Shown: in pieces, positions 5,081 through 23,561 of the stretch
Position numbering within the stretch: position 1 is the stretch's first letter
Layout: the number at the start of each line of letters is the position of its first letter
Origin: Phoenicibacter congonensis
Lineage (GTDB): Bacteria; Actinomycetota; Coriobacteriia; Coriobacteriales; Eggerthellaceae
DNA: 64,000 nt
Assembly: GCF_900169485.1 (NCBI RefSeq)
Contig: NZ_LT821227.1
Location: 1,116,001-1,180,000 of the forward strand
Direction of reading: 5' to 3'
The notes under the pieces: generated by a model
Databases searched by the model: none
The model's input: only the letters and a program-made list of their open reading frames with translations
Told to the model about the DNA's origin: nothing
Position numbers and translations under genes: made by a program

Positions 5081-6091
<1,011 letters not shown>

Positions 6092-6123
6092 TTACTAATG
6101 GATGAGAACTATTAAGCACAAAA

Positions 6124-6129
6124 ATTATA
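6124..6129 (-). promoter_or_regulatory. Extended -10 promoter of gap-pgk
   Basis: On the minus strand the hexamer TATAAT is preceded by TG-n (TGTTATAAT), an extended -10, 41 bp before the gap ATG. No convincing -35 is seen, which is common for extended -10 promoters. Confidence 0.65.
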
Positions 6130-6203
6130 ACATCCGACCTAATGCAAGCAGACCTTCTAGCATCTTTAAACGCGAACGGAAATAGCTAAAAACAAACCGG
6201 CTA

Positions 6204-7139
6204 TTATTCTTTCTTTAAATCGGAAGCAATTTGTGCAAGTCTTCTTGCCCTGTGATTAATTGCCGATTTTGAAAGCGGAGGATTGCACATCTCACCAATT
6301 TCTTTTAGAGATGCTTCTGGATTTTCAACGCGAAGCTTTATAAATTCACGAATTGCTGGTGAAAGACTTTGCAAGTCACCCTTTTTTAAAACAACTTCGA
6401 TGTCTTTAATCTGACCTATTGAGGCGTCGAGTCGCCGATTTAGATTTGCCATTTCGGCGTTAACAAATCGGTTAGTCTCATTTCTTTGTGCTTTATATTC
6501 GCGAACTTCGTTAATTCTTTGTGCCGAATCAGAAGCTCCTACGACTTTTAGAAATTCTTCAATGTCTTTGCCACTTTTTGCATAGACCATCCAGCTGTTT
6601 CTTCTCTTTACAAGCCGAGCATGAACATTTAAATCATTTAATAGCTGAGTTAAATCATTTGCTAGCGCCTCAGTTGTGACGTTCATTCCAAAATGAAAAG
6701 CACTCTTTGGTTCAGAAATGAATCCACTGGCTAAATAAACGGCCCGAAGATAACTTTTTGAACAACAGTTCCTACATTTATATTGAGGTGCAAGACCACG
6801 AATGAGAGAGTTGTTTTCATCAAGGATACCCAAATCTTTTAAGACAAGTTCAATGTTTTCTTGATAGGGAACATCAATTTGATAATTTTGAGTGTTATGA
6901 AGAACACTTCGCCTGTAGGAGATGTTTGTTTTTAAATTATAAATGTCATGCAAATAGCCAACAATCAAACGACCGACATTGCCATAATCAGTAGCAATTT
7001 CTACACGATAGCGACCTGCACCTGAAAGATAAATGGTTCCATCGATGCGGATTAAAGCACAAAGGGCAGCTTTGCGGCACAAATCACATTCACCTGGAAT
7101 GCGCACAAGCTCTTCGCGAATGTCTGAAGCAAATGACAT
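6204..7139 (-). CDS. whiA: Sporulation/division regulator WhiA
   Basis: 311 aa with a LAGLIDADG-like N-terminal domain and a C-terminal helix-turn-helix (end: PPLSKSAINHRARRL). The opening SFASDIREELVRI and the zone CDLCRKAALCALIRIDGT are typical of the family. In streptomycetes WhiA activates division genes with WhiB; in Bacillus it influences division and chromosome segregation. Its ATG follows the yvcK stop directly. It is the last gene of the addB-whiA run; rapZ-yvcK-whiA is the conserved order in Gram-positive bacteria. Confidence 0.95.
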   Translation of the reverse strand: MSFASDIREELVRIPGECDLCRKAALCALIRIDGTIYLSGAGRYRVEIATDYGNVGRLIVGYLHDIYNLKTNISYRRSVLHNTQNYQIDVPYQENIELVLKDLGILDENNSLIRGLAPQYKCRNCCSKSYLRAVYLASGFISEPKSAFHFGMNVTTEALANDLTQLLNDLNVHARLVKRRNSWMVYAKSGKDIEEFLKVVGASDSAQRINEVREYKAQRNETNRFVNAEMANLNRRLDASIGQIKDIEVVLKKGDLQSLSPAIREFIKLRVENPEASLKEIGEMCNPPLSKSAINHRARRLAQIASDLKKE

Positions 7140-8273
7140 TTAATAGCCACGCCTTGCAATCATCATTCCAATAATTTGTTCAAAGCTAGAGCGCAGAGCC
7201 AACAAGTTGTGCCAGGAAGGGTTACTTGGGTCTGATAAATCGTTTTGTACTGCAACAGGTCCCAAAGCTTGAATTTTTGCAATTTCCTCAGGAGAAACAT
7301 CAATAATGTGCATTGACTCAGGGCAAATATTTTGACGCACAGCACCTGTGTTTTCCTGTTGTTGATGTTCTATGGAATCAAAACGAACGCTGCTCTTTGC
7401 TCTGAACGAGTCTGAGTTTTTAGAAGAATTGAGCAAAACGTAATCAATTAAATTAGTCATTCCATGATTCATGAGTGCTTTTACATGCTCAGAAGCGGTG
7501 AGGCCCCATGTTTCTCCCTGCACATCAGAAATTCCGCAAACAAAAACAACTTTGCCTCGCGATTCTGTGATTGCATCAATAATTCCATCAACTAAGAGGT
7601 TGGTAATAATAGAAGTGAACAAAGAGCCAGGCCCTAAAACTATTAAATCAGCGCTAACAATAGCTTTAATTGCTGGTTCATAGGCCTTAGGTTTACTCCC
7701 GCTTTTGTTTATAAGAAAAACTCGCTTTAGAGCAGAGTTTGACTTCGTGGCGAGCGCTTGACCTTGCAAAACAGTGCCATCTACAGTTTCAGATTTCAAG
7801 TAAACATGCTCCAATGTGGAAGGCAACACGTGACCATCGCAGTGCAGTAAACTCTCGCAAATGCTAATTGCTGCTGGAAAAGATCCGCTCGAATCTTCAA
7901 GAGCACTCAACATTAAATTCCCTAAGGTGTGATTATTCGCGACTGGAAATCTATATTTAAAAGCCTGTGTGAATGGATCTTTTGGGTTTGATGCAAATGC
8001 GCAAAGACATTTTCGAATGTCACCAGGAGGTGTCACGTCGGCATCTTTTCTCAGGTCACCAGTTGAGCCACCGTCATCGGCCATAGCAACGACAGCATTT
8101 GTTGATATGCCAAGCGAACGCAGCGCTTTTATAGAACCAGGTGCACCAGTTCCGCCGCCCAATACTACAGCCCGAAAATTGCTTGGTATTGTTGTCACAG
8201 GCGCACTTGCGCTCAGCGACTCCAGCGAAATTGCTGATGTAACAGAAGGGTCTATGTTAAACGATGGATTCAA
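7140..8273 (-). CDS. yvcK: Gluconeogenesis factor YvcK (CofD-like)
   Basis: 377 aa. The 2-phospho-L-lactate transferase-like fold is marked by VVLGGGTGAPGSIKAL, the aspartate-rich ADDGGSTGDLRKD and PGDIRKCL, all near the N-terminus, and GPGSLFTSII in the middle. YvcK binds UDP-sugars and controls carbon routing and cell-wall precursor synthesis in Bacillus and mycobacteria (CuvA). The start is TTG at 8273, 21 bp after rapZ; about 30 residues precede the first motif, longer than usual, so the true start could lie further in. Confidence 0.93.
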   Translation of the reverse strand: MNPSFNIDPSVTSAISLESLSASAPVTTIPSNFRAVVLGGGTGAPGSIKALRSLGISTNAVVAMADDGGSTGDLRKDADVTPPGDIRKCLCAFASNPKDPFTQAFKYRFPVANNHTLGNLMLSALEDSSGSFPAAISICESLLHCDGHVLPSTLEHVYLKSETVDGTVLQGQALATKSNSALKRVFLINKSGSKPKAYEPAIKAIVSADLIVLGPGSLFTSIITNLLVDGIIDAITESRGKVVFVCGISDVQGETWGLTASEHVKALMNHGMTNLIDYVLLNSSKNSDSFRAKSSVRFDSIEHQQQENTGAVRQNICPESMHIIDVSPEEIAKIQALGPVAVQNDLSDPSNPSWHNLLALRSSFEQIIGMMIARRGY

Positions 8274-11171: not shown

Positions 11172-14100
11172 CTAACGATGCATTTTTTTAAGTTCAGAAG
11201 CAAGCTCTTCATGTAGATTTAAAAGATCATTATCACAATAAGAAAAACTCTGAACTAAACAATCTTCGGGGTCATCACTCGACTCGATTTCAACATGCAA
11301 AAAATCAACAGTGACTCGTTTTATCCCGCTAGCTAACAATGCCCAAGAATATACCTTAGCCTGGCTGCTGTGATCTATGGGCTTTGTTCCAGTTTTGTAG
11401 TCAATCACTCGAGCTTTGTCGCCAGAAATTTCAATCAGGTCCATTGCACCACGAAGCCACATCTTTTTGCCATCATGCTCAAAAGGAACACAAAAATCCA
11501 TTTCAGGAATTACATTTTCAGAAGAAACAATGGAATTGAAGAGCGCATTATTAAATGCTCTGTTCATCGCCATAGTCATTCTTCGGCTGGAATTGATTGG
11601 GACTTCGCGCTCATCGCACATCACACAAACTTGCATAGCATCATGAAACGCTGTCCCAAAAGCGGTTGCTTTATCACTGTCATGCCTTTCTTTTTCAAAT
11701 GAGTCAATTTCTTCCTCAACGATTGGGATTGAGAAACCATCAGTGTCTAGGAGCTCATGGGAAAAAGATTGCAGTTGTTCAATGTTGGAATAGGAGAAAA
11801 AAGTCTCATCGGTTAGATTTCCTGGCATTTCGTAAAGCTTTTCTGGAAATTTACGAACTGGAAGAATTTTTGGTTCAAAAGAGCTGTTGTCACCAGTGTC
11901 AGCATCACCACCATCAGTTTCAATGTCTCCCACACTTGTGGCTGGTGGTTCATTTTCGTTTTCCTTAAAATGAAGAGCTTGGGGCAAATTCATAAAAGAC
12001 AAAATTCCATTTGAGCCATTTGGAAGAGTGAAAACGTCAGTTGAAGAAGCAAGATTATAGTCCCATTGAAAGACTTTAAAGAGGCTTTCCCAAATGCCGC
12101 AACCTGCATAGTCGTCCTTAGGAGCACCTTTAATTCTCACTTGCAAATATACAGACTTAACTGCACGCGTTAGTGCAACATACAACAATCTTTTTGCTTC
12201 ATCATATTCCTCAGAGTTGTTTCTCACAACGAGAGTTCTATAAAGCTCACCTGCCGTCATGCCTTGATGAACTATTGGTTTTTTTGCAAAGATGTTGTCT
12301 TTTGAACAAATTTTATTAAAGTTATTGTCACCCCAGTCATCTTTTTTCAGCATTGAAGCAAAAACCTGCTGTCCCAGGCTTCCAATCGAATCATTTTGGA
12401 CAATCATCTCATTTTTTGGAACAGCATTTCTTGAAAGCCCATTACGCATCTCTGAGACAATCACATGGTCGAACTCAAGTCCTTTAGAAGCATGCACTGT
12501 CATAATTTGGACGTAGTTTGATTCACTAGAACAAAGAACCCCAGGTGCTTCTTTGGAGTATTTTAAAAGAGAAGAATAGGACGTCTGAATGTGGGACAAT
12601 TCCTTGGAATCAACCTCTATCTCTTTAATAATTTCAAACGCTTTTTCAAAATTTCCCGCTTTAACATAACCCTCAGAACCCAAAGCGGAAACCGCATCTA
12701 GGATTCCACATTCACTTAAAAACTCCCTGATTGCAAGACGTGTCGATTGCTTTGATGAGTTATCGATAAACTTGAAAAGCTTTTCATAAATAAAAGAAAC
12801 CGATTGTCTGTCATCTTCGTTGAGTTCTGAAAGCATTTCATCATCAACATAGATAAAGCCTCTAGATAAATCTCGCCCACTTAAATAATCACCAGAATCA
12901 TCAAATTTAGAACATAAAACAAGTAATGAATCATCTGAGATTTTAAAATAGTCACTTTTTAGGATTTCAATGAGAGACTGAGAATCAAAAGGATTTCTTG
13001 CAATATTTAGAAGATTTTCAATTAAAACCGCCTCTTCGGAAGATGAAAACGTAGACCCACCTGAGATAATCGACTCGATTCCAACATCGAGAAGCGCATC
13101 TTGAAATATTTTCGCGATTTCACAAGATGCGCCAAACCTTGAATTCGATTTTAAAGTTGAAAGCAATATAGCCATTGAGCCGGGATTTATTCCCGCATCA
13201 TAGAGCGTCTTAAAATAATTTGCTGCCTCCCTAGCTTCATGCGCAATAACATTTTGCTTGCTAAAGAGTTCTTTAGTTGATTTGTAATTCATTACATCAA
13301 TTTTGACACGAGGCAATTTTTCAAAGACAGGATCTCTATCATCATTGATTTTGCCCTTGGCATTTAGATGCAAAAACTCTTCTCCAAACATGGATTCATC
13401 TGCAAAAATCATGTCAGTCAAAGATAGAATGTCACTGTGAGAGCGATAATTGTTTGGGAGATTAAAGACTCTAACACCGCTTTTGTTATTTAAAAGAGTT
13501 TCTTTATATTTTCGAAACACATTTACATCTGCACCTCTAAATCGATATATGCTTTGTTGGACGTCTCCAACGGTGCAAACATTTCTAAATTTATCTTTAG
13601 CAATTAAATCGATGAGTTTTAGTTGCAAGTTGTCGGTGTCTTGAAACTCGTCAATCATTATCAAATCAAAATTGTTTTTATATTTTTCACAAATGTCAGA
13701 AGAAAACGCGAGAAATTCATAGCAACGACGCAAAAGATCATTATTCGATAATTTATTGTTGCTCTTCAACATTTGCAATTCAGAAAATGTCATTTTTGCA
13801 AGTCGATAATAAACTTGAATTGCATCTAAATTAGCAACACACAAAAGTTCAATAAACAGGTGTGCTACAGATGCATGAAAGTCATTAATTTCTGTTTCGT
13901 AACCCGAATCTTTCAATGCTTTTAAATCCAAGTGTTTTATGCTTTTAAAAATCTCAAGAGCCGTCTCCAAATCATCATCGAAAGTGTCGACGCTGTGAGA
14001 ATCTATCAAGAATTTGTCAATTTTGCCAAGCACTTCATTTAGATTCTCGCCACGTTCGACAATAGTCTTTGAGCCAGAATCAAAACTGATTGAAGAAAGC

Positions 14101-14909
14101 ACATCAGCTACAGCACGTGACAAGCTCACCATAATTTCTGTAATAGACAAAAACGATCCAAGGAAAATTTTGTCGGAATCGACCTTCTGGACAGACGACA
14201 ATACAGAAACCATTTTATGAACGGTTTGCAGCAAGTTATCTTTCATGAAAGCTTCATCTTGAAGCATGTTGTCAGTGAAAAACTTTACAATTTCTTCGCC
14301 CGATTGAACAGAAATTACACTAGTTATAAAGTCTTTAATTTGACTCTTAATGTTTTCTTGCAGAGTTTCTACATCGTCACCACTAAATTGAGCGAGACCT
14401 GTAAGTTCAGAATTATCTCCATCAATTATTGCACCTTCATATTGAGCGCCAGTCAAAAACTCTTCAACTCGATCGGTCCCGGAATACAAATCGTTTAAAG
14501 CATTGTTAAAAGCCCTGGCAAACAGCTCGGCTTCCTCACCTTCATCAATGACTCTAAAATTTGGATCAAGACCAAAATGTAGTGCATTTTCTCGGAGAAT
14601 GCGAGTTGCAAACCCATGAATTGTCGAGATATATGAGTCATCAACAAGAAGAGCTTGTTCATGCAGACCTGCACTCTCAAGCTTTCCTCTCAGCCTGCTT
14701 TTTAATTCTTCGGCTGCTTTATGTGTAAAAGTAATAGCAACGATGTTAGTGACACTTCTTGCAAATGTTTTTCCACTTACATCAGGCGTCAAAGCATACA
14801 AAATGCGCTCAGTTAAAGTGTGAGTTTTACCAGAACCTGCGCCCGCCTGAACAATGACAGGGCAATCAAGTGTTTCTATTACATCTAGCTGAGGATTGCG
14901 CTCGTCCAT
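11172..14909 (-). CDS. addA: AddA-type UvrD-like helicase/nuclease
   Basis: Motor and nuclease subunit of the AddAB break-repair complex that resects double-strand ends for RecA. 1245 aa. Superfamily 1A motifs in order: Walker A AGAGSGKT (22-29), motif Ia AITFTHKAAEEL, motif II DEFQDTD, motif III GDVQQSIYRFRGAD, motif IV NNYRSH, motif V TVHASKGLEFDHV, motif VI ALTRAV. The C-terminus carries the PD-(D/E)xK nuclease core RVIDYKTGTKP preceded by GTAFHDAM. The region between holds an acidic linker. It starts 1 bp after the addB stop. The RecB-like versus AddA name rests on the addB partner. Confidence 0.92.
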   Translation of the reverse strand: MDERNPQLDVIETLDCPVIVQAGAGSGKTHTLTERILYALTPDVSGKTFARSVTNIVAITFTHKAAEELKSRLRGKLESAGLHEQALLVDDSYISTIHGFATRILRENALHFGLDPNFRVIDEGEEAELFARAFNNALNDLYSGTDRVEEFLTGAQYEGAIIDGDNSELTGLAQFSGDDVETLQENIKSQIKDFITSVISVQSGEEIVKFFTDNMLQDEAFMKDNLLQTVHKMVSVLSSVQKVDSDKIFLGSFLSITEIMVSLSRAVADVLSSISFDSGSKTIVERGENLNEVLGKIDKFLIDSHSVDTFDDDLETALEIFKSIKHLDLKALKDSGYETEINDFHASVAHLFIELLCVANLDAIQVYYRLAKMTFSELQMLKSNNKLSNNDLLRRCYEFLAFSSDICEKYKNNFDLIMIDEFQDTDNLQLKLIDLIAKDKFRNVCTVGDVQQSIYRFRGADVNVFRKYKETLLNNKSGVRVFNLPNNYRSHSDILSLTDMIFADESMFGEEFLHLNAKGKINDDRDPVFEKLPRVKIDVMNYKSTKELFSKQNVIAHEAREAANYFKTLYDAGINPGSMAILLSTLKSNSRFGASCEIAKIFQDALLDVGIESIISGGSTFSSSEEAVLIENLLNIARNPFDSQSLIEILKSDYFKISDDSLLVLCSKFDDSGDYLSGRDLSRGFIYVDDEMLSELNEDDRQSVSFIYEKLFKFIDNSSKQSTRLAIREFLSECGILDAVSALGSEGYVKAGNFEKAFEIIKEIEVDSKELSHIQTSYSSLLKYSKEAPGVLCSSESNYVQIMTVHASKGLEFDHVIVSEMRNGLSRNAVPKNEMIVQNDSIGSLGQQVFASMLKKDDWGDNNFNKICSKDNIFAKKPIVHQGMTAGELYRTLVVRNNSEEYDEAKRLLYVALTRAVKSVYLQVRIKGAPKDDYAGCGIWESLFKVFQWDYNLASSTDVFTLPNGSNGILSFMNLPQALHFKENENEPPATSVGDIETDGGDADTGDNSSFEPKILPVRKFPEKLYEMPGNLTDETFFSYSNIEQLQSFSHELLDTDGFSIPIVEEEIDSFEKERHDSDKATAFGTAFHDAMQVCVMCDEREVPINSSRRMTMAMNRAFNNALFNSIVSSENVIPEMDFCVPFEHDGKKMWLRGAMDLIEISGDKARVIDYKTGTKPIDHSSQAKVYSWALLASGIKRVTVDFLHVEIESSDDPEDCLVQSFSYCDNDLLNLHEELASELKKMHR

Positions 14910-14910
14910 G

Positions 14911-17664
14911 TTAATTCTTCCCTCTCGCAGGGCAATTGCTCACGTTGCAATATTGGCACACTGTTTTATCCATTGGACAAGGCACTATAAAGCCTTCCTT
15001 TAAGTTTTCAAGTTTAGATTTAATTTTCATTTCAATAAAATCAAGATATTGATCCATGTCAATCGAAACGCTACACTTCCGAGCGTCTTTCCCAAAACCG
15101 CTAAAGTCTGAAATGATGTCGCTTTGAACTGAACCTGAAAGCCAAGGTTCATCACCGCGAGTTTGCTTGTAGGCTAAATAAATGGCCCCGTCACAATGGC
15201 GGCCAGTCATTTTTCTAACACAAGAGGCATAAATCAATGTCTGAACCTTCTTTGGCAGATCTACAATTGCACTTCCATCTTCAGGATTAATTTCAACAAC
15301 AGCGCCGCCACAATAATCTTTGATAGATCCTTTGTAGTCAATCACAAGAAAAGAGTTTGTTTCTGCACAAACATCAATGCGATCAATTCTGGGCCTAAAA
15401 TCAGAAGCTTCATTAGGGTCGACGCGCCCACCAATCACAACCCCTGCATATTCAACATTTTGGCTCTCATCAATTGGAAATTCTGACTCAGCAACTAGAT
15501 ATCGATTTGGAAGTTGCGTTTGACGTTTCAAACAATCGATAACTTGACCTTGTAATTGCATCAAATCAAATTGATCACTAAATGATTCAAGAGCCGCCAT
15601 GGCTGACATATTTGAGTCCGATGACAGGTTTTTGTTCACCGCTAAATCAAATGCATATTCAAAAAGATCTTTGTGCGGAAACTCTAAATCCCAAGCTTCT
15701 AGGCGATAGATGCCCGACTTAGCCAATTCTTTATAGAAACAGTTAAAGAAGTCATGAATTATGTTGCCTTTAATAATTTGGTTAAATTCAAAATCAAGCG
15801 ATTTTGGGTTTATCCTTCTTTCATAAAACCATTTGTACGGGCACTGAATGTATGCCTCAATTTGAGATGGAGACAAGATAAATCGTCCATCCTCAGTTTT
15901 TCTTAAGTGCTTGCCTAAATCCACACTATTGAGTTTGAATGTGAGCGGAAATACTTTGCGCGACACATCGCTGTCGTTCGTTTTAGAATAGCCAACGACC
16001 CCCAAGAAATCATCTTCTCCAAAACGCCTATAAGCAATGTTGTGGTCTTTGCAGAACTTTTCAGTCTCTTTGTCATCAAATTCGCATTTTGTAATTTGAT
16101 AAATGAGTTCTTGAAAAGTGAAAGAGACCGACAAAGTTTCAGCTTTTCTCAAATCTCTGTCGGGGACACATAAAAACACATCATTTTTGCTTGCAAGCAA
16201 AGCAGTAAAAAAGTTTAGCCTGGATGTTTTAGAAGCACTAAACATTTCATTTAGTTTTACCTTTTCTAAAAGGGTGTGGAGTGCATCAAAACTATCAGCA
16301 GAATCGAATGACCTTGCTGATACATCACAAAAAAAGACATTGTCTACACTTGAATAGGGGATGTTTTTAACACTTGCAGCACTCTCAATAAACAAATTGG
16401 ATTGTAAATTTTGAACACCGGCGACTAAATTCACCTCAATTTGCATGTGTTTGAAAATTTCAAAATCAAAGCGCACATTAAACCCAATGGTTGACAAAAT
16501 TGTTGCAAGATGCAACAGCACATCGACAGCAGCAGCGCACTCTTGCTTCTCTTGCTGCGATAGTTTAATTTCTTTGACGATGAGCAGCTTCAAACATTCA
16601 ATTTGCTCAATTCGCTCAGTAGGCACAGAAGAGCTAGCTATCCGACATAAGACATCAAAAACAATAGAGGAATCTTTTAGCGAATCAATTACCTTTTGTC
16701 TTGAAACAACTGGATTCCCACGAAGAGCCACGTCTAAATCGCAGCGTTTTTTAATACTCAAATTTAAAAGTGGGTTGTAAATCAAGCGAAATAAACTGTC
16801 TTGAACTACATCCCCCTCTCCAAAAAGCAAATTAAAACAAGCTTGAAGCGCTTGTCCAACATATGTATCACTGAGTAAAACGCTTTTTTTATAGCTAACG
16901 CGAAGCTTCAGATCGTTGTTCTTAACAATTGAAGAAACTTGATTGTAAGTCTCGTCAATATCACTTGTTACAATTAAAGTTGTAGAGCCGTCCTCGACGC
17001 AATTTAGCAATTCAGACATTGCTGGAATGTTTGCTTTTAGTTCAGATAATGAATTGATTGTGTACCTTAGATTTGCTTTTGAACCCTCATCAAATATGTC
17101 AACCTCTGAAAACTTTTCAGTGTGCGAAATTTCAGAAATGCATTTTTTAACAGAAGGCAAACAGTCGCAATCATCTTCCCAAGTAACATCAAACATCCCA
17201 TGGAATTTATCAGAGACCTCTTGAGTTAATGATCCAACCTCGGCAAAGTTAAATGCGCTCAAAGTAGAGAAATACCTGTCTGCAATGAGCACAGCTTCTC
17301 TTTCAAACTCAGACAAATTGCTGCTGGAGTTTTTTATTTCAAGGAGTGCACACGCAAATTCTTCGGTACCAGCCGCTCTTTTAACAAAATTAGCAATTAG
17401 CTCAATGCAATTTGGATTTTGAAAATATGCAAAATGTTCAAACTTGTCGGCTGAGTGAACCACAGAAAGCAAAAAAGCATACCTAGTCACACTATCAACC
17501 AAAACTACTTCTTTGTTAATTTTCGTTGCAAGACTTGAAACAAAAGACAAGGGCGTTGTGCATGTGTGACCGAAACAATTACCACTATCAGCAAGCTTTT
17601 TTGTAAAAGATTCGGCACGGTCGATGCTTCTGAAAAGATGAATTTTATTAACTGGATTTGTCAT
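14911..17664 (-). CDS. addB: AddB/RexB-type subunit with PD-(D/E)xK nuclease and Fe-S cluster
   Basis: 917 aa. The N-terminal two-thirds correspond to the inactivated helicase half; no Walker A is visible, as in streptococcal RexB and unlike Bacillus AddB. The C-terminal nuclease shows the entry motif SPSQIEAYIQCPYKWFYE, KGNIIHDFF and the catalytic VIDYKG. The four Fe-S ligands of the family are present: Cys608 and the C-terminal trio Cys903, Cys906, Cys911. The partner addA follows at 1 bp. The ATG has no Shine-Dalgarno and lies 6 nt from a perfect TATAAT, so the message may be leaderless. Confidence 0.88.
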   Translation of the reverse strand: MTNPVNKIHLFRSIDRAESFTKKLADSGNCFGHTCTTPLSFVSSLATKINKEVVLVDSVTRYAFLLSVVHSADKFEHFAYFQNPNCIELIANFVKRAAGTEEFACALLEIKNSSSNLSEFEREAVLIADRYFSTLSAFNFAEVGSLTQEVSDKFHGMFDVTWEDDCDCLPSVKKCISEISHTEKFSEVDIFDEGSKANLRYTINSLSELKANIPAMSELLNCVEDGSTTLIVTSDIDETYNQVSSIVKNNDLKLRVSYKKSVLLSDTYVGQALQACFNLLFGEGDVVQDSLFRLIYNPLLNLSIKKRCDLDVALRGNPVVSRQKVIDSLKDSSIVFDVLCRIASSSVPTERIEQIECLKLLIVKEIKLSQQEKQECAAAVDVLLHLATILSTIGFNVRFDFEIFKHMQIEVNLVAGVQNLQSNLFIESAASVKNIPYSSVDNVFFCDVSARSFDSADSFDALHTLLEKVKLNEMFSASKTSRLNFFTALLASKNDVFLCVPDRDLRKAETLSVSFTFQELIYQITKCEFDDKETEKFCKDHNIAYRRFGEDDFLGVVGYSKTNDSDVSRKVFPLTFKLNSVDLGKHLRKTEDGRFILSPSQIEAYIQCPYKWFYERRINPKSLDFEFNQIIKGNIIHDFFNCFYKELAKSGIYRLEAWDLEFPHKDLFEYAFDLAVNKNLSSDSNMSAMAALESFSDQFDLMQLQGQVIDCLKRQTQLPNRYLVAESEFPIDESQNVEYAGVVIGGRVDPNEASDFRPRIDRIDVCAETNSFLVIDYKGSIKDYCGGAVVEINPEDGSAIVDLPKKVQTLIYASCVRKMTGRHCDGAIYLAYKQTRGDEPWLSGSVQSDIISDFSGFGKDARKCSVSIDMDQYLDFIEMKIKSKLENLKEGFIVPCPMDKTVCQYCNVSNCPARGKN

Positions 17665-17720: not shown

Positions 17721-18263
17721 ATGAACGAAAGCTTAAAAGATTTTATTTTCGCCGCTCTATTCACAGCCTTTATTGCTGTTAGCGCAATGATTACAGTCCC
17801 ACTAGGTCCAATCCCATTTACACTGCAAACATTTGCAATCACTCTTGTAATGTTTATCGCAAAACCTAAGGTGGCTCTTCTTTCAATGGTAATTTATATT
17901 CTGCTTGGGGCTATTGGAGCACCTATTTTTTCATCAATGAAAGGTGGAATTGGTGTGTTAATGGGGCCAACAGGCGGATTTTTAATAGGATACCTCTTAG
18001 GCATTTTTCCAGTTGGGCTTGCAATGCAAAAATTTAATGAGAAATCATCAAGCACAGGCACAAAAATCGCTGTAACCATTGTGTCAGGCATCGTCTTAAC
18101 ATTGATTGCATATGTCATTGGAACAGTTCAATTTATGGTTGTTATGAATCAAACGCTAGCAGTTGCACTCGCTTCTTGCGTGATTCCATTCATGCTAATC
18201 GACCTCGCAAAAATTATCGTTGCATGGATACTTTCAGCTTTAGTTAAAAAACATCTAAATTAA
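17721..18263 (+). CDS. bioY: Biotin transporter substrate-binding protein BioY
   Basis: S component of an ECF-type biotin transporter in the cytoplasmic membrane. 180 aa with about six hydrophobic segments and the BioY hallmarks PLGPIPFTLQTFA and GAPIFSSMKGGIG followed by GPTGGFLIGYL. BioY can work alone or with the shared EcfA/A'/T module, which is not in this window. It suggests biotin uptake rather than synthesis. It stands alone between the divergent addB promoter and a strong hairpin. Confidence 0.94.
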   Translation: MNESLKDFIFAALFTAFIAVSAMITVPLGPIPFTLQTFAITLVMFIAKPKVALLSMVIYILLGAIGAPIFSSMKGGIGVLMGPTGGFLIGYLLGIFPVGLAMQKFNEKSSSTGTKIAVTIVSGIVLTLIAYVIGTVQFMVVMNQTLAVALASCVIPFMLIDLAKIIVAWILSALVKKHLN

Positions 18264-18340: not shown

Positions 18341-18373
18341 AAATATGACCAGCTCACATAGCTGGTCATATTT
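18341..18373. terminator. Bidirectional terminator-like hairpin
   Basis: A perfect 14-bp inverted repeat (AAATATGACCAGCT, loop CACAT, and its complement), A-rich before and T-rich after. It lies between convergent bioY and the Sel1-repeat gene and could end both transcripts. Confidence 0.75.
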
Positions 18374-18454: not shown

Positions 18455-19381
18455 TTAGTCGCAGTATCTCCGTTTTCTGAATCCATGTCTAAAACCAAAA
18501 GGAACAATGCCTAACTCTTGTTTCATGCGCTCAAGCCCTTTTTCGGCATCAACTAGGTAGGGCTCAAGTAAATCGTCACCAAGATCAAGAGCAAGCGTCA
18601 AAGCATCAACTGCCTTTTGATAATAATCATGCGCAAACTCAAAACTCAAATCACATCCACACCCATATTCAAAACAGTTACCTGAGTAGAGCGTTGCTAA
18701 TCCGACAGTCCTCGCACTAGCATTCCTAACATGATTTAAAACTTCTGCATACAAATTAAATGCAGAAGTTGTGTCAAGTTCGCATCCTACTCCTAACTGC
18801 ATGCATTGCCCGAGCAAAACACATGACTCTATATCGCCCAAATTCTTTGCGCGAACAAGACAGTAATATGCGCGATCTTCACGAGAGTCAACTTTTAGAA
18901 GACGAGGATAGCTTGATAAAACTTCATATTCATCATCAAAAAGCCAATAGTTCCCAAACGCCCAATCTTTCAAATACATCTCGCCCAAAAGCCGCCAAGA
19001 TTCTCCACTTCCCTCCCACTCTGAAAAGAATGCGGAATGCATAAGCAATAGTTCAGCACTTTTCAAGCAATCAATTCGAAGGTCACGATCGGCTGGTTCG
19101 CAATAGGAAAGCCCTTCCTCAATGTATCGCTTTGCATATTTAAGAGCCAAGTTTGGACCTGCCCAACTCTCTCCTGGCATTAAATAACCACGCGGGTAAA
19201 CATCAAGATAATCACGACCAATGTAGCGGTCGGTAGCCATGTCAAAAACAGCCTGTGTTATTGCAACTTCAGGAAGACCCGTGGTCAAAGCAAGCTCTTT
19301 AGTCGGCAAAAAAGCACATGCTCGAGTGATGCGCTCTCGCTCTTGCGGGCGAAGTTTATTTTGAAAAACCCACCTAGTCAT
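18455..19381 (-). CDS. Sel1-like/TPR repeat protein of unknown function
   Basis: 308 aa, no signal peptide or membrane segment seen. The first 60 residues are rich in basic and helical sequence without a family I recognise. The second half has degenerate Sel1-type repeats: an ESCVLLGQCMQLGVGCELD unit, then a NCFEYGCGCDLSFEFAHDYY unit with the G-x-G-C spacing typical of Sel1, and a helical C-terminus. Such repeats mediate protein-protein contacts. The start overlaps the HIRAN gene by 8 bp, so it is the last gene of a three-gene unit. Function is not known; an adaptor role is only inferred from the fold. Confidence 0.75.
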   Translation of the reverse strand: MTRWVFQNKLRPQERERITRACAFLPTKELALTTGLPEVAITQAVFDMATDRYIGRDYLDVYPRGYLMPGESWAGPNLALKYAKRYIEEGLSYCEPADRDLRIDCLKSAELLLMHSAFFSEWEGSGESWRLLGEMYLKDWAFGNYWLFDDEYEVLSSYPRLLKVDSREDRAYYCLVRAKNLGDIESCVLLGQCMQLGVGCELDTTSAFNLYAEVLNHVRNASARTVGLATLYSGNCFEYGCGCDLSFEFAHDYYQKAVDALTLALDLGDDLLEPYLVDAEKGLERMKQELGIVPFGFRHGFRKRRYCD

Positions 19382-19787
19382 CTAAATAAACCTCAATGTC
19401 AATTTTGTTCCAAGGACCAATGACCTCTGAAGATGTAACTTCTGCATAAAACTCTTTATCGCCATCCATTAAACGAGCGACAATTTCATTGCAATCACAA
19501 GGTAAATAACCAAGTTTCTCGTGATTTTTTGTTTCTATTTTCACAGCAAAAGCATCATTTAGATTGCCTTTTTCGCGCGCAAGCAAAAGCCTGTCGCCAA
19601 TTTTTATGTTCTTCATCAAATAATCGATGTTGGGGGTTTTAGATGTGTTTGCTACTCTGGTGTTAGTTATAACCTTTATCGCATTTGAAAAAGGTTTTAC
19701 AAATCCAAGTTCGCTACCGCCTTCAACATATCCACCAACCGCACTTTTTGATATTTTTGATAAGCCATATGAATTAACTTCACTCAT
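19374..19787 (-). CDS. HIRAN domain protein
   Basis: 137 aa. About residues 50-120 match the HIRAN pattern: GDRLLLAREKGNLNDAFAV, then KLGYLPCDCNEIVARLM and a beta strand. In eukaryotic HLTF/Rad5 this domain binds 3' DNA ends; small stand-alone bacterial HIRAN proteins are largely uncharacterised. The N-terminal 50 residues are Ser/Gly-rich and look flexible. It lies 13 bp behind the J-domain gene and overlaps the Sel1 gene, without a clear RBS, suggesting coupled translation. Nucleic-acid binding is an inference from the domain. Confidence 0.75.
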   Translation of the reverse strand: MSEVNSYGLSKISKSAVGGYVEGGSELGFVKPFSNAIKVITNTRVANTSKTPNIDYLMKNIKIGDRLLLAREKGNLNDAFAVKIETKNHEKLGYLPCDCNEIVARLMDGDKEFYAEVTSSEVIGPWNKIDIEVYLDD

Positions 19788-19800
19788 GATACAGTTTTAG

Positions 19801-20616
19801 TTACTTTCTGTTTCTTTCTATAATGTCAGCAATTTGTGCTTTAAAACGAGCAGTGTGGCGCTCACAATTTTCAGCACGTCTAATCAAACTTTCAGAGGTT
19901 TGCTTTACCCAATTTCTGTCTTTTAATTTGTCTTTCATGTTGTATGGAAAACTATTCTTGATTTCCCCTAAAACTTCAAGCTGCGTGCCTTCATGCGCTT
20001 TTAGTGTTTCAATTGTTGCCGCAATTTGTGAATCTGTCAAAAGCTCATAGCGATCATCAGTGTCAATGCCATAGGCATCACAATAGGCAACAACAGAAAT
20101 GAAGTCGCATGAATCATATGCTTTTTGGATAGCTTCAAAATCGCGCTTTTCCACGTCGGTTAAATTCGGACATAAATCAGGATGAAGTTTTTTACAAAGC
20201 CTTCTGTAGAGCTTTTTTAGTTTTTCGGGGTCGTATTCAAGGTTCCCAAACTCTTTTGCTTTTGTGCTGTTCGAAGAAACGTTGGAGACATCTTGAGCTC
20301 CTGCATCATTCATCCATTTGTCGAACTCGTCATCAAGCACAGCATCAATTACATTTTCGTCAACGTCGGCCTCTCGCTCAACAGCGGCCTTGCACATGGC
20401 GAGCTTTCGTTTTGCGCGACGCTCATTAATTTCTGCCTCTGCTAACTCAATTTCATAGCAACCAATTTTGTTCATGTAATCTGCTTCAATTAAAGGGTTT
20501 TGAACAAGAGAAATGTCATCCCTCTCTAAAACATAGTCTTTAATTCTGTCTCGAAATGATGCTATTTCTTGAAGATAGTGTTCTTTTAGCTTGCTGTTTT
20601 GTGGAACCTGATACAA
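19801..20616 (-). CDS. J-domain protein with coiled-coil flanks
   Basis: 271 aa. A J domain sits in the middle (about residues 130-175): YDPEKLKKLYRRLCKKLHPDL carries the HPD triad needed to stimulate Hsp70 ATPase, followed by AIQKAYDSCD. The flanks are highly charged and helical, consistent with coiled coil; there is no zinc finger or DnaJ C-terminal domain, so it is a type III J-protein that would recruit DnaK to a special client. The start is TTG at 20616 with only a poor RBS, so it is uncertain. First gene of the J/HIRAN/Sel1 unit, behind mgtE. Confidence 0.8.
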   Translation of the reverse strand: MYQVPQNSKLKEHYLQEIASFRDRIKDYVLERDDISLVQNPLIEADYMNKIGCYEIELAEAEINERRAKRKLAMCKAAVEREADVDENVIDAVLDDEFDKWMNDAGAQDVSNVSSNSTKAKEFGNLEYDPEKLKKLYRRLCKKLHPDLCPNLTDVEKRDFEAIQKAYDSCDFISVVAYCDAYGIDTDDRYELLTDSQIAATIETLKAHEGTQLEVLGEIKNSFPYNMKDKLKDRNWVKQTSESLIRRAENCERHTARFKAQIADIIERNRK

Positions 20617-20705: not shown

Positions 20706-22100
20706 CTATATAGCAATGTGCAAAAATGCACAAGCCATTAGCATGTAGGTAACAACAGATATCATGTCAGAAATTGAAGAAATCATGGGGCTTGCCATCA
20801 ACGCTGGGTCAATGCCAACTCTCTTAGCTGCAATTGGCAAAAGACCACCAAGGATTTTCGCGCAGAACACAATAATTATCTGAGAAACTGCAACTGTGAG
20901 ACCTATCATAATGCTCTGATGGTCGATGAACACAACTTTTAATAAGTTAAAGAGGCTCAAAACAACACCAACAATAAGGCTGATTCTTGCTTCTTTCCAA
21001 AGAACTTTGGCATAGTCTTTCGTTGAAATGTCTCCAACTGCAAGACCACGAATAACAAGAGTTGCAGCTTGTGAACCTGAATTGCCACCACTTCCCATGA
21101 GAAGAGGCATGTAGCTAACAAGAATGATGACCTGAGACAAAACTTCCTGAAATGCTGAAATAATAGAGCCTGTCACCATTGCGCTAACAGTTAAAAACAA
21201 CAACCAAGGTAATCTGTTTTTCACATGATTTATAACAGGAATGTCAAGATATTCATCGCCAGCATTTTCGCCAGACATAACGCCGGCCATTCTCTCGATG
21301 TCTTCTGTGGCCTCGTCTTCGATAACATCAAGGATGTCGTCAACTGTAATAATTCCAACGATTCTGTGCTCTTTGTCAACAACAGGAATTGCCATGAACC
21401 CATATTTCTTAAAGGCTTCGGCAACCTGCTCTTGGTCATCGTAGACATTCACAGAAACTACATCGGTGTTCATAATTTCTTCAATTTTTGTGTCCCCATC
21501 AGCTAACACCAGAGCACGAAGAGACACGATGCCAATTAGCTTTCTTCCTTCGCTTTTTACATAGCATGTGTAAATTGTTTCTGAATCGATGCCTTCCTTG
21601 CGAATTTGTGCAAGAGCACGTGTGACAGTCATGTCCTTTTGAAGCGAGACATATTCAGGCGTCATCAACGTGCCAGCGCAATCATCTGGATAATTCAAGA
21701 AAGTGTTAATTAACTTGCGTTCATCTCGAGGAGTTTCCATCAAGATTTTGTCAACAATGTTTGCCGGCAATTCCTCCAAAACGTCGATTTTATCGTCGAA
21801 GTCGAGCTCATCTAAAATAAATGAAATCTCTCGGTCGTTAATCGCTTGAATAATGGCTGTTTGCTCATCAGAATCTAGAAAAGAAAAAACTTCAACCGAA
21901 ACGTCTTTTGGGAGCATTCTAAAAATGGCAACTGTTTTTTCAATGCCTAAATTGTCTCCCACCTCCTCAAGGATTTCAGCAATGTCGGCTTCATTGCATG
22001 CGAGCAAAAGATTTCTTGCAGACATGTAATGCCTGTTTGAAATCTCCTCTATAACCTGTTCGGTTACTTCGTCAAATGTTAAAGTTTTTTCATCTGCCAT
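20706..22100 (-). CDS. mgtE: Magnesium transporter MgtE
   Basis: Mg2+-gated magnesium channel of the cytoplasmic membrane. About 464 aa from ATG at 22100 (a TTG five codons upstream is possible; neither has a good RBS). In order: the acidic superhelical N domain (ILEEVGDN to LNYPDDCAGTLM), a CBS pair (about 140-265, with AIPVVDKEHRIVGIITVDDILDVI), and five membrane helices with the pore signature MGSGGNSGSQAATLVIRGLA. It follows purB by about 20 bp; placement behind purine genes may simply be read-through. Confidence 0.95.
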   Translation of the reverse strand: MADEKTLTFDEVTEQVIEEISNRHYMSARNLLLACNEADIAEILEEVGDNLGIEKTVAIFRMLPKDVSVEVFSFLDSDEQTAIIQAINDREISFILDELDFDDKIDVLEELPANIVDKILMETPRDERKLINTFLNYPDDCAGTLMTPEYVSLQKDMTVTRALAQIRKEGIDSETIYTCYVKSEGRKLIGIVSLRALVLADGDTKIEEIMNTDVVSVNVYDDQEQVAEAFKKYGFMAIPVVDKEHRIVGIITVDDILDVIEDEATEDIERMAGVMSGENAGDEYLDIPVINHVKNRLPWLLFLTVSAMVTGSIISAFQEVLSQVIILVSYMPLLMGSGGNSGSQAATLVIRGLAVGDISTKDYAKVLWKEARISLIVGVVLSLFNLLKVVFIDHQSIMIGLTVAVSQIIIVFCAKILGGLLPIAAKRVGIDPALMASPMISSISDMISVVTYMLMACAFLHIAI

Positions 22101-22121
22101 TACTGTGTCAAACAAATAGAA

Positions 22122-23561
22122 TTAGACGTGAAGCTCACTTTTCATGTGCAATGAATCAGCGTTCTCAACTAGAATTGGATTGACAACTTCCTCACAGAAG
22201 TTTTCTACTTGTAATGGAGAAAGTCCAATGAAGTCGCTAGGATTTACACATTCTTCAATCTCATCAATTGTCAAACCAAAGCGGCTGTCATTTTCAATGC
22301 GAGCAATTAAATCGTTAGGTTTGCCTTCAACCTTCACAACACTTGCAGCATCTTGCGCATGTTCTCTAATGATTTCGTGAAGTTCCTGACGGTCTCCACC
22401 TTTTTTAACTGCCTTCATCAAAATGTTTTCACTTGCCATGAAAGGAAGTTCAGCCATAACGCGAGACTCAATAACTTTTGGATAAACAACAAGTCCATCG
22501 GTCACATTAATCAAGATATTAAGAATTGAATCAATTCCTAAAAAGGCTTCAGACATGGCAATTCTCTTATTTGCAGAATCATCTAACGTTCGCTCAAACA
22601 TCTGCGTTGCGGCTGTAAATGATGGGTTAATAATGTCGGTAATGACATAACGAGCAAGTGAACAAACTCTCTCTGAACGCATTGGGTTTCTTTTATAGGG
22701 CATTGCAGAAGATCCAATTTGATTTTTCTCAAAAGGCTCTTCCATTTCCTTAAATGAAGCAAGTAGACGAATGTCTGTGCACATCTTGCTTGCTGATTGG
22801 GCAACACTTGAAAGTGCAGAAAGAACAAAAAAATCAAATTTGCGTGAATAAGTTTGACCTGAAACTGGAACTACTTTATCAAAGCCAAGTTCATTAGCGA
22901 CCGATTTTTCTACCTCTTTAATTTTTTTAACGTCGCCATCGAATAATTCAACAAAACTTGCCTGTGTTCCCGTGGTCCCTTTAACTCCGAGCAAACATAA
23001 ATCGTTAACACAACGTTTTAGCGCTTCATAATCAAGACAAAAATCATATGTCCAAAGAGTTGCACGTTTGCCGACTGTGGTAAGTTGTGCAGGCTGCAGA
23101 TGAGTGTATGCCAAGCATGGAAGATTTCTATATTCTTTGGCAAATTCACTCAGCTGAGAAATCACAGTCACAAGTTTCTTAATTACAAGTTGCAAAGCTT
23201 CACGCATTACGATAATGTCACAGTTGTCTCCAACATAGCAACTAGTAGCTCCAAGATGAATGATTCCTTTTGCATCAGGACATTGTTGGCCATATGCATA
23301 AACATGGCTCATAACATCGTGTCGCACTAGCTTCTCGCGTTTCTCGGCAACATCATAATTGATGTCATCCTTATGCGATTCAAGCTGAGCAATTTGTTCG
23401 TCAGTGATATTTAGCCCAGCATTTTTTTCTGCACGCGCCAATGCAATCCACAAACGTCTCCATGTTTGAAATTTCTTTTCCTCACTGAATAGGTGTTGCA
23501 TCTCTTCGCTTGCATAACGCGTCGAAAAAGCTGATATATATTTATCGTGTGTGTTAGTCAT
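22122..23561 (-). CDS. purB: Adenylosuccinate lyase
   Basis: Splits fumarate from SAICAR and from adenylosuccinate. 479 aa, of the longer PurB type. Shows the fumarase/aspartase superfamily signature GSSAMPYKRNPMRSE, the substrate-binding TSCYVGDN, and HLQPAQLTTVGKRA. The start ATG has a GAGG upstream. It lies 47 bp after purL, near the end of the purine operon, and supplies both of its steps (one before AICAR, one to AMP). Confidence 0.96.
   Translation of the reverse strand: MTNTHDKYISAFSTRYASEEMQHLFSEEKKFQTWRRLWIALARAEKNAGLNITDEQIAQLESHKDDINYDVAEKREKLVRHDVMSHVYAYGQQCPDAKGIIHLGATSCYVGDNCDIIVMREALQLVIKKLVTVISQLSEFAKEYRNLPCLAYTHLQPAQLTTVGKRATLWTYDFCLDYEALKRCVNDLCLLGVKGTTGTQASFVELFDGDVKKIKEVEKSVANELGFDKVVPVSGQTYSRKFDFFVLSALSSVAQSASKMCTDIRLLASFKEMEEPFEKNQIGSSAMPYKRNPMRSERVCSLARYVITDIINPSFTAATQMFERTLDDSANKRIAMSEAFLGIDSILNILINVTDGLVVYPKVIESRVMAELPFMASENILMKAVKKGGDRQELHEIIREHAQDAASVVKVEGKPNDLIARIENDSRFGLTIDEIEECVNPSDFIGLSPLQVENFCEEVVNPILVENADSLHMKSELHV

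Follow-up and report, generated by a model that had tools for sequence, protein, structure and literature searches.

Nearest described systems and the locus

J-domain proteins that bear an HPD motif stimulate Hsp70, and DnaJ together with DnaK disassembles the replication complexes of phages lambda and P1. DNA-end binding, for its part, is common to the HIRAN domains studied so far (PMC4666394, PMC8262856): in HLTF, Y72 and Y93 bracket the DNA dinucleotide (PMC4666394), and partial motifs of a similar kind have been described in the HIRAN domains of HipN and HipL as part of a HipA phylogeny (PMC8262856). Here we characterise a cassette of three genes, encoding a J-domain protein, a HIRAN protein, and a Sel1-like repeat protein, in a 64,000-nt window of the Phoenicibacter congonensis contig NZ_LT821227.1, to which all coordinates refer unless a locus label is given. 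Its first two genes form a pair that recurs in at least 13 phyla. The J-HIRAN partnership was not found described in the literature searched, where searches for HIRAN in combination with DnaJ, a J domain or Sel1 turned up nothing relevant (the founding 2006 HIRAN paper was not covered), and its function is unproven. The cassette consists of the following features:

19801..20616, reverse strand: first gene, J-domain protein; open reading frame (ORF) of 271 amino acids (aa), TTG start, Pfam DnaJ
20176..20184, reverse strand: HPD codons (J residues 145–147), read from the sequence
19374..19787, reverse strand: second gene, HIRAN protein; ORF of 137 aa, ATG start, Pfam HIRAN
18455..19381, reverse strand: third gene, Sel1-like repeat protein; ORF of 308 aa, ATG start, identified by family profile

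A gap of 13 bp separates the J and HIRAN genes, and the HIRAN and Sel1 genes overlap by 8 bp; the extent of the cassette (18455–20616), both spacings, and a hairpin at 18341–18373, as given in the initial annotation of this window, were all reproduced from the sequence.

The J domain proposed in that annotation is borne out by a Pfam DnaJ match above cut-off (5.5e-7, 30.0 bits versus 27.8, residues 129–168) and an intact HPD between helices II and III, but the protein is more than a bare J domain. In a confident AlphaFold model (mean predicted local distance difference test, pLDDT, 89.8), the J core, made up of helix II (residues 130–144), the HPD loop, and helix III (154–168), is set within a long helical scaffold (residues 8–122 and 187–270), for which a whole-fold search of the PDB returned nothing below an E value of 0.001. 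The likeness to class C J-domain proteins, which carry neither a G/F nor a zinc-finger client domain, lies in the J core and its invariant HPD, whereas the scaffold without a PDB match and the tie to a HIRAN gene set the cassette protein apart. With HPD kept in all 81 HIRAN-paired homologues, use of Hsp70 by this family would be expected.

The HIRAN domain is likewise upheld, both by Pfam (1.9e-12, 47.2 bits against a cut-off of 24.7) and by fold. The AlphaFold model (pLDDT 84.5) predicts about 35 mostly disordered N-terminal residues, with the HIRAN fold beginning at about residue 36. Its nearest solved structure is lp_0118 of Lactobacillus plantarum (PDB 3k2y), an uncharacterised HIRAN-like protein of ~25% identity (Foldseek 1.2e-8, TM 0.91 by target, 1.4 Å). 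The HIRAN domains of HLTF and Rad5 (PDB 4xzf, 4s0n, 6kcs) share the fold (Foldseek 2.3e-5 to 2e-4, probability 1.00) at 14% identity, whereas the cassette protein has no helicase or RING and is partnered by a J-protein. In one homologue of double the usual length (L112:1460-2314, family profile 2.6e-80), the sequence reads as two tandem HIRAN domains.

Among bacterial systems, HipI-HipN and HipL resemble the cassette in having a HIRAN domain encoded in a short operon. In the defence library, the model that the HIRAN protein matches best is PADLOC's PDC-M03B (7.7e-11), which, judging from the papers, we infer to represent the HipI-HipN/HipL system; PADLOC models gave no match to the J and Sel1 proteins. 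HipIN/PDC-M03 has a HipA-type kinase gene beside HIRAN and a HipS-like domain before it, whereas the cassette has MgtE, the J-protein, the Sel1 protein, and BioY as neighbours and its HIRAN fold follows the mostly disordered stretch described above. Membership of PDC-M03/HipIN was therefore ruled out, since both the kinase and the HipS-like part are lacking.

For the third protein, the earlier Sel1 call fails in a single-protein search, where Pfam Sel1 stays below its cut-off (0.013, 16.5 bits versus 30.7), and stands at the family level: a profile of eight homologues matched a solved Sel1-repeat protein at 7e-29, and several homologues exceed the Pfam cut-off (among them L055, 63.2 bits, and L043, 35.7 bits).

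Conservation of the J-HIRAN pair

When 84,980 species genomes were scanned with four J sequences as query, 80 loci were recovered; adding the class loci described below brings the total to 86 J loci, each located from its J sequence only. In 81 of these, across at least 13 phyla, HIRAN directly adjoins J, and the two genes mostly overlap or nearly touch. Rows of the tree include loci from Actinomycetota, Bacillota, Bacteroidota, Chlorobiota, Chloroflexota, Verrucomicrobiota, Kiritimatiellota, Fusobacteriota, Spirochaetota, Fibrobacterota, Thermodesulfobacteriota, and Fidelibacterota, and from a Thermoplasmata archaeon. The five loci without an adjacent HIRAN comprise a contig end (L087), a missed ORF (L051), and three Eremiobacterota that form one branch, in which a weakly HIRAN-like gene lies immediately upstream of J. 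Distance matrices of J and HIRAN correlate at r 0.67 (shuffled maximum 0.105), a value that is inflated by co-inheritance of the two genes as one unit.

Because of this adjacency and the co-variation of the two families, it is nearly certain that the wide conserved core is a J-HIRAN two-gene module, real and under selection. The neighbourhood thus extends well beyond close relatives, and the proposal of a three-gene unit holds in that a functional unit exists, although the wide unit is J-HIRAN and Sel1 is lineage-dependent. As the J tree groups mostly by phylum, transfer of the pair between phyla is limited. The J family was present in 15/148 genomes sampled from the phylum of Porphyromonas, 3/199 from that of Streptococcus, and 4/198 from the phylum of the source organism, as well as in ~5% of genomes of its class; no genome with a close match to the J family lacked an adjacent HIRAN in the three phylum samples.

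Within the class sample of 149 genomes, the source genome (G000) carries another complete cassette (G000:C1 269327-271547; L039 9328-11548), whose J and HIRAN proteins are 43% and 37% identical to those of the first over the aligned part. In the tree, the two J copies group as sisters inside a Coriobacteriia clade with good support. The one further genome available for the genus (G681) has the first cassette at the same place, between mgtE and bioY, and an additional HIRAN gene at another site. Between the orthologues of these two genomes, non-synonymous divergence (pN) is 0.245 for J, 0.124 for HIRAN, and 0.239 for Sel1, low against a synonymous divergence (pS) of 0.74–0.81, which is saturated, so that all three genes are under purifying selection within the genus.

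The full J-HIRAN-Sel1 order occurs in G000 (twice), G096, G130, and G146, while in G012 the J-HIRAN pair and the Sel1 gene lie on separate contigs, and G092 and G029 have J-HIRAN with third genes other than Sel1. The cassette is thus beyond chance, since its order recurs within the source genome and in other Coriobacteriia, and the pair recurs across phyla. Homologues of the Sel1 protein (E<1e-14) were found in six of the 149 class genomes, all with a HIRAN gene and unlinked to it once (G012); the probability of six out of six would be ~2e-9 under independence, a figure that kinship makes too small.

In Coriobacteriia, Sel1/TPR genes lie beside the pair, on its downstream side except in L050, where the gene is upstream. 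They also do so in at least three branches outside this class: downstream in Solobacterium (L060) and Bacteroidales (L084), and upstream in the branch of L104, L118, and L127 and in L120. Other genes closely downstream of the pair belong to unknown families. The Sel1 gene is therefore a regular third partner in Coriobacteriia and a lineage-dependent member overall, and the recruitment of Sel1/TPR genes to the pair is recurrent but not universal, as they occupy the third place in several branches and unknown families do so elsewhere. One such family, of ~211 aa, lies closely 3' of HIRAN in Tissierellia-type Bacillota (L073:9238-9873, L081:4196-4831, L126:9193-9813), and the two members searched had no Pfam match.

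Possible functions of the module

Our working proposal, which we put forward tentatively and with somewhat more doubt than conviction, is that the cassette is a client-targeting unit through which DnaK reaches a nucleoprotein substrate that HIRAN recognises. The HIRAN protein would act as the targeting subunit, recognising a nucleic-acid end or nucleoprotein complex, and the J-protein would bind it through its helical scaffold. The HPD loop would then load cellular DnaK onto proteins at the HIRAN-marked place and stimulate it there, to pull these proteins apart or refold them, and the Sel1 protein could serve as an adaptor holding the client or the complex together. The action of DnaJ and DnaK on lambda and P1 replication complexes illustrates, by analogy only, how a J-protein can work on nucleoprotein complexes, and DnaJ has no HIRAN partner in that case, whereas the cassette would have a dedicated targeting subunit.

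The pocket that holds the DNA 3' end in HLTF gives a mixed picture. Across 81 aligned HIRAN sequences of the family, the equivalents of N91 and D94 are kept in 74 and 76, respectively, the H110 position is aromatic in 77, and the K113 position is R in 37. The family varies at the Y93 position and does not retain Y72. With N91 and D94 retained and the two tyrosines not, nucleic-acid binding in a manner other than that of HLTF is plausible for this family.

Loss of the tyrosines is one of several observations that weigh against the proposal, alongside the inflated family correlation. The J family has a divergent branch in Bacteroidota, seen in the Porphyromonas phylum sample (L157-L165), that has no HIRAN, and at the three loci examined it adjoins genes for a BatA-like vWA protein and/or an M61 glycyl aminopeptidase; since this branch does without HIRAN, the J scaffold can work without it. 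Conversely, G036 and G052 have HIRAN-Sel1 without J, next to genes that we read as an AbiE pair. On one predicted viral contig (L191), HPD is changed to HPS in the J protein, with loss of the D.

A broader version, which we regard as distinctly speculative, would make J-HIRAN a widespread and so far undescribed system for aiming Hsp70 at the ends of nucleic acids or at nucleoprotein complexes that have stalled; Sel1/TPR proteins would be adaptors exchangeable for one another, and mobile variants such as L191, with its AAA ATPase, would serve in mobile-element conflicts. A J family tied to one DNA-binding-type domain in at least 13 phyla is a testable lead on bacterial Hsp70 aimed at DNA-bound complexes, and the pair gives a function to seek for many genes known solely by their J or HIRAN domain. 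The initial annotation had suggested a chaperone-guided factor acting on DNA or stalled complexes. The functional unit in that suggestion stands; the action on DNA is conjectural: HIRAN retains the N91 and D94 equivalents but not the Y72/Y93 pair, and defence genes were no more frequent among the neighbours than in a small set of control genes.

Those defence genes bear on a doubtful but live rival, an anti-phage or anti-plasmid module in which HIRAN would sense the free DNA ends of an invader, and J with DnaK would activate or release an effector or dismantle the invader's replication complex. The patchy distribution of the family (the ~5% of class genomes, and its rarity in each phylum sample) would fit such a role, as would the match to PDC-M03B. 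A HIRAN scan of predicted viral contigs, moreover, recovered five distinct contigs carrying HIRAN with a J-family gene, whereas scanning viruses with the J alignment gave no hits. Two viral loci of identical sequence (L187/L188) have the pair with a Y-family polymerase, an IrrE-like peptidase, and type I restriction genes; L190 has it with a serine recombinase (integrase) and a gene that we read as Sel1/TPR-like; and in L191 (74-2346) an AAA ATPase, the HPS-bearing J, and HIRAN form one run adjoined by a Vsr endonuclease gene. L189 is another predicted viral contig with HIRAN and a J-family gene, and L192 has HIRAN with a partial J gene only.

Against a role in conflict, the cassette had no match among 50,697 phage and 72,556 plasmid named records, its chromosomal place is fixed in the genus, and domain and defence-library scans of its proteins revealed no recognisable toxin or nuclease. 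Co-occurrence with defence genes, a check suggested by the initial annotation, gave a divided answer: related restriction-modification genes lie near the pair in 7/80 loci (two of them checked), while a PADLOC tally of 135 neighbour versus 135 control genes showed no visible excess among the top 25 families compared, with a control set that was small and clustered. We accordingly treat defence as a live rival and not as a finding.

A role in stress or proteostasis at large, with HIRAN as a protein-protein adaptor only and nucleic acid playing no part, is unlikely in our estimate. Such a role would account for the missing DNA-end-stacking tyrosines of HLTF, for partners that are helical-repeat scaffolds, and for loci that are fixed in the genus and in Chlorobiaceae, but it fits poorly with the retained N91/D94 equivalents, with a pocket rim that is often basic or aromatic, and with the binding of DNA ends by studied HIRAN domains (PMC4666394, PMC8262856). 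Chance adjacency of the genes, or unrelated functions within one transcript, is barely credible, for although the lineage-dependent presence of Sel1 would agree with it, the adjacency in 81 of 86 loci of many phyla with matching distances, the complete second cassette of this genome, and the decayed one in L054 speak against it, and for J-HIRAN it is refuted.

Flanking genes and further observations

The surroundings of the cassette in the window are as follows:

17721-18263, forward strand: bioY (Pfam), downstream and convergent on the cassette
18341..18373, no strand: hairpin in the interval where the cassette and bioY converge, computed as terminator-like on both strands
20706-22115, reverse strand: mgtE (Pfam), upstream and on the cassette strand
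22122-23561, reverse strand: ORF upstream of mgtE that we read as adenylosuccinate lyase

The hairpin has a stem of 14 bp and a loop of 5 bases, at about -20 kcal/mol on either strand, and since bioY converges on it, it is probably a bidirectional terminator common to bioY and the cassette. No terminator was called in the 89-bp interval from mgtE to the J gene, so transcription from mgtE may possibly run into the cassette.

In the Eggerthellales metagenome-assembled genome mentioned above, L054:162-1843 holds a decayed second cassette, with pieces of J, HIRAN, and Sel1 interrupted by stops, upstream of an intact one (6087-8241). HIRAN genes of family f3 (L021-L023) were considered and set aside as a separate J-less group that is not part of the cassette group. 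Beside or near J-less HIRAN genes of several Coriobacteriia (L021, L022, L046, L047) lies a gene whose product starts MNEIKCPxCG.

Beyond bioY, at 11172-17664, two long genes of 1245 and 917 aa read as an AddAB-type helicase-nuclease pair, and a gene like the 917-aa one also adjoins bioY in G681.
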